From: a virus
DNA length: 21,377 nt
Direction: 5' to 3' (one strand)
IMG/VR virus record: IMGVR_UViG_3300035703_000439
Coordinates: 1-21,377 of that record
The translations under genes and the position numbers were made by a program. The notes below the pieces were generated by a model that was not told the origin of the DNA, did no database searches, and saw nothing but the letters and a program-made list of their open reading frames with translations. Positions 8,490 to 18,552 of this stretch are shown piece after piece. The first letter of the stretch is position 1. The number at the start of each line of letters is the position of its first letter.

Positions 8490-8507
8490 ACGCTCTTTGA
8501 CAATTTA
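8490..8507 (+). promoter_or_regulatory. rrn-like boxA antitermination motif, copy 1
   Basis: CGCTCTTTGACAATTTA closely matches the E. coli rrn leader boxA with its flank (TGCTCTTTAACAATTTA), the binding site of NusB-S10. It lies about 60 nt after the promoter at 8406, the position expected for a leader signal. Confidence 0.65.
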
Positions 8508-8510
8508 CAA

Positions 8511-8673
8511 AACAATTTGTATGCCGGAACAGGTATACGGTGGTGAGGACTAAGCCAATACGGATAGGGTGTGTAATGCTAATAAGCACCTTTGCGCTCA
8601 TGGTGAAACCCACCAGTGCTGGGCAGCGCAACGTAACAGCACAATGTTGGCTCGAATCCAACTACAAATTGTT
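8511..8673 (+). ncRNA. Structured RNA with T-arm and 11-bp closing helix, no CCA
   Basis: AACAATTTGTA (8511-8521) pairs perfectly with TACAAATTGTT (8663-8673). Directly before the 3' strand is a T-arm, GTTGG-CTCGAAT-CCAAC (8646-8662), stacked as in a tRNA. The interior is about 125 nt where a tRNA has about 41, and holds TGCT-AATA-AGCA and TTGCGCT/AGCGCAA hairpins. It follows boxA copy 1. I find no tmRNA tag frame and no rRNA similarity; class unknown. Confidence 0.5.
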
Positions 8674-8696
8674 TTTTAACTTGTTGAAAAAAGTTG

Positions 8697-8763: not shown

Positions 8764-8781
8764 ACGCTCTTTGACAGTTTA
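8764..8781 (+). promoter_or_regulatory. rrn-like boxA motif, copy 2
   Basis: CGCTCTTTGACAGTTTA differs from copy 1 at one base and lies just downstream of the promoter at 8697. Confidence 0.65.
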
Positions 8782-8843: not shown

Positions 8844-9012
8844 GTAAGTAGACGATGTATGCACCAACATACATTAACTAACTCTACTTACATGTATGTT
8901 AGAAATGGGAGTAGCACGGTTCGACTCCGTGTGTGGTTGGGTTGACCTATGTAAAAAGCCGACGGGCGCTCGCTGTTTCAAAGACAGACTAACATACTTG
9001 TAAGTAGAGTTA
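8844..9012 (+). ncRNA. Long hairpin RNA with alternative folds and an internal T-arm
   Basis: TAACTCTACTTAC (8879-8891) plus GTATGTTAG (8894-8902) pair with CTAACATAC (8989-8997) plus GTAAGTAGAGTTA (9000-9012): 22 bp with a 2x2 internal loop. Inside is a perfect T-arm, CACGG-TTCGACT-CCGTG (8915-8931). TCTACTTAC (8883-8891) can instead pair with upstream GTAAGTAGA (8844-8852), around the hairpin ATGTATG/CATACAT, so two folds exclude each other. The long stem is a plausible RNase III site. Confidence 0.5.
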
Positions 9013-9053
9013 AAAACTAGTGCAGGAGGTAGACTCCGTAAGTCACAAGCTAC

Positions 9054-9105
9054 ACGGTACTGCTTGATCGAAGCAGCTAAGTCAACCAAGCGATGGTTAG
9101 AGCCA
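9054..9105 (+). ncRNA. Two-hairpin element, family B copy 1
   Basis: Starts ACGGTACTGC; hairpin CTGCTT/AAGCAG (9060-9076), linker CTAAGTC, hairpin AACCA/TGGTT (9084-9098), end AGAGCCA. It shares its unpaired parts with 9665-9715 while the helices differ with compensation. It ends in CCA but has no acceptor or T-arm. Confidence 0.5.
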
Positions 9106-9117
9106 AAAACATATTGT

Positions 9118-9375: not shown

Positions 9376-9451
9376 TTCTAGTTAGCTCAGTTGGTAGAGC
9401 GTCTGACTGTTAATCAGAATGTCGCTGGTTCGAGCCCAGCACTAGGAGCCA
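9376..9451 (+). tRNA. tRNA-Asn(GTT), second copy
   Basis: Acceptor TTCTAGT/ACTAGGA, loop CTGTTAA, T-arm GCTGG/CCAGC, discriminator G, CCA. Quite different in sequence from the copy at 9204. Confidence 0.93.
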
Positions 9452-9457
9452 AATAAT

Positions 9458-9565
9458 TTTCAAAGTCTGGCGGCGGTTGACCGTTCCAGATAAGTGTTGA
9501 AGCGTTGGCTGGCACCAGCGTGGAGCCAAAGAGTAAGAGATGCCAGTCTCTGCTGTGCTTTGAAA
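9458..9565 (+). ncRNA. Four-helix RNA with exactly complementary hairpin loops (kissing-loop candidate)
   Basis: Closing helix TTTCAAAG (9458-9465)/CTTTGAAA (9558-9565). Hairpin 1 TCTGG/CCAGA (9466-9490) with inner CGG-TTGA-CCG. Hairpin 2 CGTTGG-CTGGCA-CCAGCG (9503-9520). Hairpin 3 AGAGA-TGCCAG-TCTCT (9536-9551). The 6-nt loops of hairpins 2 and 3 are exact reverse complements. It fills the whole interval between tRNA-Asn and tRNA-Pro and has no CCA-tailed acceptor. Class unknown. Confidence 0.55.
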
Positions 9566-9574
9566 TATAACTTA

Positions 9575-9652
9575 CAGTGTGTAGCTCAGTTTGCGTAGAG
9601 TGCTCGCCTTGGAAGCGAGAGGCCGAAGGTTCAAATCCTTTCACACTGACCA
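9575..9652 (+). tRNA. tRNA-Pro(TGG)
   Basis: Acceptor CAGTGTG/CACACTG, anticodon stem CTCGC/GCGAG, loop CTTGGAA, T-loop TTCAAAT, encoded ACCA. Confidence 0.93.
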
Positions 9653-9661
9653 AATTACAAT

Positions 9662-9715
9662 ACGGTACTGCAACTTGAAATGCAGCTAAGTCGCTCGAAC
9701 ACGAGAGCAGAGCCA
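9662..9715 (+). ncRNA. Two-hairpin element, family B copy 2
   Basis: ACGGTACTGC start, hairpin CTGCA/TGCAG (9668-9685), linker CTAAGTC, hairpin CTCG-AACA-CGAG (9694-9705), end AGAGCCA. Pairs change relative to 9054-9105 while linker and ends stay the same. Confidence 0.5.
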
Positions 9716-9723
9716 AAAACATA

Positions 9724-9794
9724 CGGAGCGTGGGCAGGATGGTAATGCCTTTTGCAGATAGCCTATCTGCTAAATAAAGTATGGGAGATAGGTT
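9724..9794 (+). pseudogene. Possible tRNA 5' part cut off by the endonuclease gene
   Basis: A D-arm-like hairpin, GGCA/TGCC, is followed by an anticodon-arm-like hairpin GCAGA-TAGCCTA-TCTGC (GCC in the loop, but A at position 33). No T-arm or acceptor 3' strand follows; the endonuclease Shine-Dalgarno (GGGAGAT) and start come next. It could be a tRNA-Gly remnant or a leader hairpin. Confidence 0.4.
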
Positions 9795-10160
9795 ATGAAT
9801 GTAAATGAAAAAGGTAATACAGGCTTAATAAAAGTTATGTCTGACTTGTATGATAAAGGTTATCATTGTTTTACACCGTTTGATGATTATAGTCCAGTAG
9901 ACTTAATTGCAATGGATAAGCAAGGTAATATTAAAAGACTACAAGTTAAATATCGCTCATTGCTTCCTAGCAAAGGAACTTATGAAGTTGCAGGGCGTTC
10001 TATGGTAAACGGAAAAGGCGTCAATATAGACAAGAGTTTGATTGACGGTTGGGCTGTTTATTTAGAAGAAGAACAGAAAGTAACATACTTGCCTGTTAGT
10101 ATAATGGAAACCAAGAATGTTCATTATATTAAACCAGGTGAGATACAAGATATTTGGTGA
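9795..10160 (+). CDS. PD-(D/E)XK homing-type endonuclease
   Basis: 121 aa. The order N-terminal E-K-G-N-T-G (5-10), helix, then P-V-D-L-I-A (35-39) and Q-V-K-Y-R (50-54) matches the small PD-(D/E)XK endonucleases related to I-Ssp6803I, which is encoded in a group I intron of a cyanobacterial tRNA-fMet gene. The catalytic D and the Q-x-K lysine are present. ATG 9795 follows GGGAGATAGGTT. Its TGA stop (10158-10160) lies inside the 5' acceptor strand of tRNA-Ser, and a tRNA-like remnant precedes it, so it probably entered the island as a tRNA-targeting mobile gene. I see no group I intron around it. Confidence 0.75.
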   Translation: MNVNEKGNTGLIKVMSDLYDKGYHCFTPFDDYSPVDLIAMDKQGNIKRLQVKYRSLLPSKGTYEVAGRSMVNGKGVNIDKSLIDGWAVYLEEEQKVTYLPVSIMETKNVHYIKPGEIQDIW

Positions 10161-10247
10161 GATGCCTGAGAGGCCGAAAGGAGCGGTTTGCTAAACCGTC
10201 GTAGGGCGAAAGTTCTACCCAGGGTTCGAATCCCTGTCTCACCGCCA
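10156..10247 (+). tRNA. tRNA-Ser(GCT), class II
   Basis: Acceptor GGTGAGA/TCTCACC, anticodon loop TTGCTAA, long variable arm, discriminator G and CCA. Its first five bases double as the end of the endonuclease gene. Confidence 0.93.
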
Positions 10248-10260
10248 TAAGCACACTAGC

Positions 10261-10315
10261 ATCTGGCTAGTCCAGACCGTAAGGTTAACGGTGACAAGCA
10301 GGGAGAGACCTGCAC
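10261..10315 (+). ncRNA. Three-hairpin element, family A copy 1
   Basis: Hairpins TCTGG-CTAGT-CCAGA (10262-10276), CCGT/ACGG (10277-10291) and GCAGG-GAGAGA-CCTGC (10298-10313), then ACAAGA and a short spacer to tRNA-Ala. The second copy lies at 10596-10656. Confidence 0.55.
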
Positions 10316-10324
10316 AAGATTTTT

Positions 10325-10409: not shown

Positions 10410-10484
10410 GGGCCTATGGTGATAATGGGAGCATATTGCACTTGCAATGCAATGGACACGGATCGTAACCGTGTGGGTCCACCA
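10410..10484 (+). tRNA. tRNA-Ala(TGC), second, divergent
   Basis: Acceptor GGGCCTA/TGGGTCC, anticodon stem TTGCA/TGCAA, loop CTTGCAA, T-stem CACGG/CCGTG with unusual T-loop ATCGTAA, ACCA. D-stem has a mismatch. Confidence 0.85.
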
Positions 10485-10515
10485 AAACACGCAGGAAAAG
10501 ATCTGCATAAGAATT

Positions 10516-10589
10516 GGCCTATTGACGTAGTGGTAGCGTACCGGATTGTCTATCCGAGGGCGGGAGTTCAATTCTCCCATAGGTCGCCA
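10516..10589 (+). tRNA. tRNA-Asp(GTC)
   Basis: Acceptor GGCCTAT/ATAGGTC, loop TTGTCTA, T-loop TTCAATT, discriminator G and CCA. Confidence 0.92.
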
Positions 10590-10595
10590 AAAAAT

Positions 10596-10656
10596 CTTAG
10601 GTCGCTCCTAAGTCTAACGTCTAGGAAGACGTGACAAGCGGGGAGAGACCTGCGCA
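10596..10656 (+). ncRNA. Three-hairpin element, family A copy 2
   Basis: Hairpins CTTAGG-TCGCT-CCTAAG (10596-10612), ACGTCT-AGGA-AGACGT (10617-10632) and GCGGG-GAGAGA-CCTGC (10638-10653), then GCAAGA. Hairpins 1 and 2 differ fully in sequence from copy 1 yet pair; hairpin 3 and GTGACAAGC are conserved. It precedes tRNA-Val. Confidence 0.55.
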
Positions 10657-10665
10657 AGAATTTAC

Positions 10666-18008: not shown

Positions 18009-18159
18009 CTGTTTTCACATGCAATAATAAAGTGTAAGGGTGATATATACCTTGGGCGACAGCAGTAAGATAGAGTGAAGTACAAACTCCGTATCTGTTA
18101 GTAGTTTAGGTACAAGGTGGGGTTGGTTCGAGTCCAACAATTATTGCAGTTGAAAACAG
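18009..18159 (+). ncRNA. Structured RNA with perfect T-arm and two-part closing helix, no CCA
   Basis: CTGTTTTC (18009-18016)/GAAAACAG (18152-18159) and TGCAATAAT (18020-18028)/ATTATTGCA (18140-18148). A perfect T-arm, GTTGG-TTCGAGT-CCAAC (18122-18138), stands one base before the 3' strand, as in a tRNA. The interior includes AGATA-GAGT/ACTC-CG-TATCT. Same architecture as 8511-8673. The CTGTTTTCAC start also resembles 17034-17043. Confidence 0.5.
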
Positions 18160-18164
18160 AGTTT

Positions 18165-18239: not shown

Positions 18240-18245
18240 ATATAT

Positions 18246-18327
18246 GGGTTTGGGGGCGTATGTTAGGAAACGCGGTGCCACCTTAAAGGCACAATTATCG
18301 CGGGTTCGAGTCCCGTCAAATCCACCA
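18246..18327 (+). tRNA. tRNA with 8-nt anticodon loop, identity uncertain
   Basis: Acceptor GGGTTTG/CAAATCC, T-arm GCGGG/CCCGT, ACCA. The anticodon stem GTGCC/GGCAC closes an 8-nt loop ACCTTAAA. Keeping T33 gives TAA (Leu); other registers give TTA or CTT. D-stem has three pairs with a long loop. Confidence 0.75.
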
Positions 18328-18334
18328 AAGACAC

Positions 18335-18426
18335 GGGGGTGTCAAATAAGGCTATGCTGGTGCTAGCAGCGGACTGTAAATCCGTTCCTGAAGAGGCAAG
18401 TTGTTCGATTCAACACACTCCCACCA
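18335..18426 (+). tRNA. tRNA-Tyr(GTA), second, with long acceptor-D linker
   Basis: Acceptor GGGGGTG/CACTCCC, stem GCGGA/TCCGT, loop CTGTAAA, class II variable arm, ACCA. Nine bases (TCAAATAAG) instead of two separate the acceptor from the D-arm GCTA/TAGC. Confidence 0.82.
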
Positions 18427-18432
18427 TTTTAC

Positions 18433-18552
18433 GTGCAAGTAGCCAAACGGTAAAGGCACAGGCGACGGCTTGTTCGGGGTTCGATTCCCTAAGTTCTGCG
18501 TCGGCAGAATGAGTTCGGAACACTGTTGGTTCAACTCCAACCTTGCACACCA
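18433..18552 (+). tRNA. Composite tRNA with an inserted T-arm-like hairpin
   Basis: Perfect acceptor GTGCAAG/CTTGCAC with ACCA, D-arm GCC/GGC, T-arm GTTGG-TTCAACT-CCAAC. Between D- and T-arm are about 68 nt, not about 30: possible stem CGACG/CGTCG with a 31-nt loop that itself holds GGGG-TTCGATT-CCCT. No anticodon can be assigned. Confidence 0.65.

Follow-up and report, generated by a model that had tools for sequence, protein, structure and literature searches.

The tRNA cluster of bacteriophage T4 encodes on its tRNA strand two small RNAs that are annotated as stable RNAs, RNA C (species 1, 139 nt) and RNA D (species 2, 119 nt). Loop-loop contacts are familiar from other RNAs. Fully complementary loops of 6-7 nt pair between two RNAs in the kissing complexes HIV-1 TAR-TAR* and ColE1 RNAI-RNAII. 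In the purine riboswitch aptamer, a cis element of mRNA leaders with a three-way junction, two adjacent hairpins with 7-nt loops are in contact over a closing helix. GOLLD and ROOL are phage RNAs encoded near tRNA islands, and their intermolecular kissing loops build nanocages (PMC12286853). We analysed an RNA of ~110 nt at positions 9458-9565 of the IMG/VR virus fragment IMGVR_UViG_3300035703_000439, whose whole length of 21,377 bp is called the window. The initial annotation had drawn for this RNA four helices and a possible intramolecular kissing interaction between two hairpin loops, L2 and L3. The window RNA is quite probably a stand-alone structured small RNA derived from a tRNA transcript, with L2 and L3 kissing. 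Like RNA C and RNA D it is small, of similar length and located on the tRNA strand of a phage tRNA cluster; its loops are fully complementary as in the TAR and ColE1 complexes, and the arrangement of two adjacent hairpins over a closing helix recalls the purine aptamer.

Inspection of the sequence showed that the initial annotation was exact in letters and coordinates and that its four helices can be drawn as proposed, an 8-bp outer helix around three hairpins, all on the + strand. The outer helix P1 pairs UUUCAAAG (9458-9465) with CUUUGAAA (9558-9565). Hairpin 1 (9466-9490) consists of UCUGG/CCAGA (9466-9470/9486-9490) and an inner CGG/CCG; P1 and hairpin 1 adjoin without a linker and are therefore probably coaxially stacked. 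Behind the linker J1/2 (9491-9501, 11 nt) follows hairpin 2 (9502-9521) with the stem GCGUUGG/CCAGCGU (9502-9508/9515-9521). This stem is present as first described, but it has seven pairs, one more than was given, two of them G-U. The linker J2/3 (9522-9535, 14 nt) contains a conserved AAGAG(A)UAAG that continues into hairpin 3 (9536-9551, AGAGA/UCUCU at 9536-9540/9547-9551), and the linker J3/1 (9552-9557, GCUGUG) leads back to P1. The loops L2 (9509-9514, CUGGCA) and L3 (9541-9546, UGCCAG) are perfect 6-nt reverse complements. Such an arrangement is rarely expected by chance: for hairpins with a stem of at least 5 pairs and 6-nt loops of full complementarity, at most 150 nt apart, one pair was observed versus 0.01 expected per strand in 300 first-order Markov shuffles. 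Complementary-loop hairpins are generally enriched in the relatives, a good part of them being TTCGAA T-loops, thus the feature is specific to the window RNA.

A covariance model built from the single window RNA with the four helices of the initial annotation was used to scan relatives obtained via the recombinase, a tRNA-linked gene and a TilS-like gene. The sole homolog was found in contig IMGVR_UViG_3300003177_000010 (G037) at 27,878-27,987 on the minus strand, with 51.1 bits and an E-value of 2.1e-17. G037 had joined the search set through its TilS-like gene (L100) and is therefore of the same broad phage group as the window, yet it is not a near copy. In the alignment of both RNAs 62 of 111 columns are identical, among the paired columns 28 of 56. 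Twelve of the 28 stem pairs are doubly changed, three in each of P1 (out of eight pairs), hairpin 1, hairpin 2 and hairpin 3, and 98.2% of the cells are paired; a shift of the partner strands by 1-3 columns lowers the pairing to 36-47%. Hairpin 3, for example, reads AAGUA/UACUU in G037, and J1/2 has 13 nt. Sequence conservation clusters at the tip of hairpin 1 (CGGCGG[U/A]UGACCGU), in AAGAG[A]UAAG of J2/3, in both loops and in an invariant CUGUGC (9553-9558) before the closing helix.

The loops had been expected to vary together in homologs if they kiss, and independently if they do not; in G037 they changed together. CUGGCA/UGCCAG of the window is replaced by CUAGCA/UGCUAG, one G-C by an A-U pair, and the match of six pairs is exact in both RNAs. 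Including the loops, 13 of 34 pairs are doubly changed; within L2-L3 one of six pairs changes on both sides and none is broken. This support for the kissing loops comes from two sequences and one compensatory change. An exhaustive scan of the model-based alignment for complementarity of at least 5 nt in both rows returned nothing besides L2-L3 and the helices with their one-pair extensions. With the unpaired columns shuffled, L2-L3 would be perfect in both rows with P ~2.5e-6, and after a single independent change in each loop all six pairs would still match with P ~0.056. Because G037 kept the match by changing both loops, L2 and L3 very probably pair with each other. As judged by this comparison, the four helices and the loop-loop complementarity have been kept by paired change.

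Several observations weigh against a kissing-loop RNA. Two members are known, and the kissing pair varies at only one of its six positions. Hairpin 2 of G037 carries an A-G mismatch. The pair counts were taken from an alignment that had been fitted to the structure; when sequence alone guides the alignment, the register is the same in P1, in the 5' half of hairpin 1 and in the 3' part, but hairpin 2 is shifted. The folding energy is ordinary, with a z-score of -1.9 for 9458-9565 and of -0.5 with longer flanks, and in the thermodynamic prediction without the kissing pair hairpin 2 reaches a probability of just 0.45, in competition with a UUGGCU/AGCCAA helix (0.27). Finally, the RNA is dispensable, because it is absent from all other records searched. 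The case rests on homology, not on folding energy. The predicted minimum-energy fold contains an extra U-G pair in hairpin 3 that leaves a GCCA tetraloop; this cross-loop pair can be formed in the RNAs of the window and of G037.

The window encodes 43 tRNAs, all on the + strand (ARAGORN). The RNA occupies a 123-nt gap between tRNA-Asn(GTT) (9376-9451, + strand, detected by ARAGORN and Rfam) and tRNA-Pro(TGG) (9575-9652, + strand, ARAGORN), and no promoter-like or terminator-like match was present on the + strand between these two genes. The homolog likewise fills a gap, between tRNA-Leu(TAA) and tRNA-Lys(TTT), with the RNA and both tRNAs on the same strand; it begins at most 3 nt past the encoded CCA of tRNA-Leu. 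In L097, a syntenic relative with a TilS-like protein 80% identical, tRNA-Asn ends at 8973 and tRNA-Pro starts 9 nt on at 8982, without the element, so that the gap in the window holds little beyond the RNA. Comparison thus shows that in both phages the RNA sits between tRNA genes of one orientation, and that a close relative lacks it at its tight tRNA-Asn/tRNA-Pro junction. It is an optional module, and its tRNA neighbours differ between the two phages. The UvsX-like recombinase of the window, in which PHROG assigned a UvsX-like and a UvsY-like protein, shares 64-69% identity with the counterparts of Mimasvirus CBB, GAP32 and XbC2 and of Phosso and Atu_ph07, which points to a jumbo myovirus related to this group as source of the window.

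Further copies were not detected in ~75 IMG/VR contigs searched over their whole length with a two-sequence model, and with the single-sequence model on a nearly identical set, nor with the covariance model in 20 named phages including GAP32, CBB, Phosso, Atu_ph07, XbC2, S-CRM01 and T4. G037 was an easy hit for the single-sequence model, so an equally diverged homolog would have shown in the DNA searched, in which many records are fragments. Direct DNA similarity to either RNA was absent from 50,697 phage records, the exact core pattern had no match in IMG/VR, and BLAST, hidden Markov model (HMM) and exact-pattern searches recovered no homolog. Two gapped patterns run on IMG/VR and one run on 84,980 prokaryote genomes recovered the G037 copy; their other matches failed the two-sequence model or reached just 14.7-19.1 bits in GC-rich sequence and were rejected. 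Two weak model matches were also discarded, one in S-CRM01 at 165,084, which lies within a coding gene and lacks loop 2, and one in Acinetobacter phage UOL-KIMZ-24 at 2,570 with loops that are not complementary.

Among the Rfam 15 families only tRNA genes matched in the window; for 9450-9574 the best sub-threshold match had 13.4 bits and an E-value of 1. Neither ARAGORN nor Rfam reports a tRNA at 9458-9565. A faint sequence resemblance to 5S rRNA was dismissed, as RF00001 had no match up to an E-value of 10. The GOLLD and ROOL models did not match the window RNA, and both RNAs, with hundreds of nucleotides, are unrelated to it in sequence. The purine riboswitch gave no Rfam match either and differs in its three-way junction and loop size, while the TAR and ColE1 complexes form between two RNAs and have no homology to the window RNA. 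RNA C and RNA D were not matched significantly by the covariance model in the tRNA region or genome of T4. RNA C has a T-arm-like hairpin at its 3' terminus, which the window RNA lacks, and the T4 RNAs are annotated as stable RNAs, whereas the window RNA is a predicted one. Because homology to RNA C and RNA D was tested and not found, the window RNA is of the same kind, but not of the same family. It represents a previously undescribed RNA family, the nearest kind being the small stable RNAs encoded in phage tRNA clusters. The T-arm-like hairpin of T4 rnaC (L245, 1409-1547), CCGGGTTCGAATCCCGG near the 3' end, resembles tRNA-like RNAs of the window array.

Most likely, then, the analysis points to a small stable RNA cut from the tRNA transcript. 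It would be made within the transcript of the tRNA array and set free when host enzymes process the ends of the flanking tRNAs. The fold would be a four-helix junction, with P1 stacked on hairpin 1 and hairpins 2 and 3 joined by the 6-bp kiss of their loops into a second rod of ~18 bp. Judged from known kissing complexes, the J2/3 linker with 14-15 nt should be long enough to bridge this rod, and kissing would occur within one molecule rather than between two. Closing helix and kissing pair may yield a compact, nuclease-resistant and presumably stable RNA. In such a fold the hairpin 1 tip would be exposed, as would the linker sequences AAGAG(A)UAAG and CUGUGC, and a partner would probably bind there. 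The nearly invariant hairpin 1 tip is the best candidate for a recognition site, and together with the purine-rich linker it may target a host protein or a host RNA in trans.

In an alternative reading the kiss joins L2 and L3 of different copies, so that the RNA would form dimers, rings or larger assemblies made of RNA only. GOLLD and ROOL, which also lie near phage tRNA islands, are built in this way into nanocages (PMC12286853), and cis and trans pairing are indistinguishable by covariation. However, the RNA has just ~110 nt, and as hairpins 2 and 3 are neighbours and their linker of 14-15 nt in both homologs by estimate spans the coaxial kissing stack, pairing within one molecule is favoured; we regard intermolecular assembly as unlikely. 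Nor does the RNA have much appearance of a cis-acting spacer or processing signal, a folded element that directs the cleavage of the polycistronic tRNA precursor. This role would suit the terminal helix that closes the element and its location, which in both phages is precisely between tRNA genes, but many adjacent tRNAs of the array are 5-15 nt apart without such an RNA, the L097 junction also does without it, and a conserved hairpin 1 tip and a loop-loop pair exceed the needs of a cleavage site. A cis role is thus distinctly improbable.

Presence in the window versus absence in L097 and the other tRNA neighbours in G037 could be explained by a mobile DNA element with short terminal inverted repeats that inserted between tRNA genes. 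The terminal repeats of the two copies, TTTCAAAG/CTTTGAAA versus TTTAATGG/CCATTAAA, differ by compensatory changes, as in an RNA helix and unlike a transposase site; a target duplication was not seen, one copy was found in each record, and shuffling of tRNA arrays accounts for the movement. We consider a mobile element very improbable. That the loops are complementary by chance, in a decayed tRNA or random spacer, finds agreement in a folding energy close to that of shuffled sequence. This explanation is hardly credible: in the significant homolog 12 stem pairs differ on both sides and the loops have changed to match, tRNA models do not match, a T-loop sequence is absent from 9458-9565, and neither the window RNA nor that of G037 encodes a 3' CCA after P1. 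In practice, the G037 homolog refutes it.

Other unannotated RNAs were observed in the array. The best supported is a tRNA-like RNA at 8510-8674 with a long terminal stem, D-arm-like and T-arm-like hairpins, two more hairpins and a pseudoknot. Homologs occur in cyanophage S-CRM01, between tRNA-Ala and tRNA-Val, and in Pseudomonas phage GP100; across them 14 of 30 pairs are doubly changed, and the covariation includes the pseudoknot. This RNA is absent from the syntenic contigs L096 and L097 and not in Rfam. The RNA at 8879-9012 has a 24-bp closing stem and a T-arm-like hairpin and is kept in L097 (8646-8795), L099 (12125-12256) and L130 (10814-10951). In L096 (8225-8385) the same outer stem, AACTCTACTTACA/TGTAAGTAGAGTT, surrounds an unrelated stretch, as though one cargo had replaced another while the stem stayed the same. 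Another stem, AATTCTGTTTTC(ACATGC)/(GC.GTT)GAAAACAGAATT, recurs around differing RNA cargos, twice in the window (17030-17135, 18007-18162) and in at least five phages (L096 9517-9607; L112 ~8130; L142 ~11680; L120 11764; L149 12433). Several of these cargos carry a T-arm-like GGTTCGANTCC. The sequence of AATTCTGTTTTC/GAAAACAGAATT looks like a shared processing stem.

Short three-hairpin RNAs ending in GACAAGC.GGGAGAGACCTGC.CAAGA are repeated between tRNA genes (10255-10320, 10590-10660, partial at 10484-10516; L096 9447-9513; L097 9240-9305). A small element, ACGGTACTGC...GCAGCTAAGTC...AGAGCCAAAAACATA, is present twice (9047-9106, 9661-9716), with related copies in L096 and L097. The motif ACGCTCTTTGACA(A/G)TTTA, also present twice (8490-8507, 8764-8781), resembles boxA, the antitermination leader in rRNA operons of bacteria, and possibly serves the antitermination of the long RNA transcript. 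Within 9724-10247 an open reading frame of 121 aa (PHROG 5018, unknown function) ends where tRNA-Ser(GCT) starts, and the same holds for the relatives found in IMG/VR. Upstream of it is the 5' half of a second tRNA-Ser; because this gene is intact in L096 and L097, the reading frame looks to have been inserted with its own tRNA into a tRNA-Ser gene, replacing it. ARAGORN missed tRNA-like genes at 18245-18327 and 18332-18551, the former with an apparent 8-nt anticodon loop, GTGCC ACCTTAAA GGCAC, as in +1 frameshift tRNAs.

That the array contains several other unannotated RNAs with homologs raises the likelihood that the RNA at 9458-9565 belongs to a larger set, most of it undescribed. A tentative and rather doubtful extension is that tRNA arrays of jumbo phages carry exchangeable, unrelated structured RNAs (tRNA-like, pseudoknotted or with kissing loops) that act in trans, e.g., as decoys for host RNA-targeting defences; the RNA described here would then be one module of that exchangeable set. 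The function of the RNAs in phage tRNA arrays is a question that dates from the description of T4 RNA C and RNA D. The non-tRNA space of these arrays harbours several conserved RNAs overlooked by standard annotation. The new family offers a simple tertiary contact within a compact RNA, and small members of this kind would suit structure determination and searches for binding partners.
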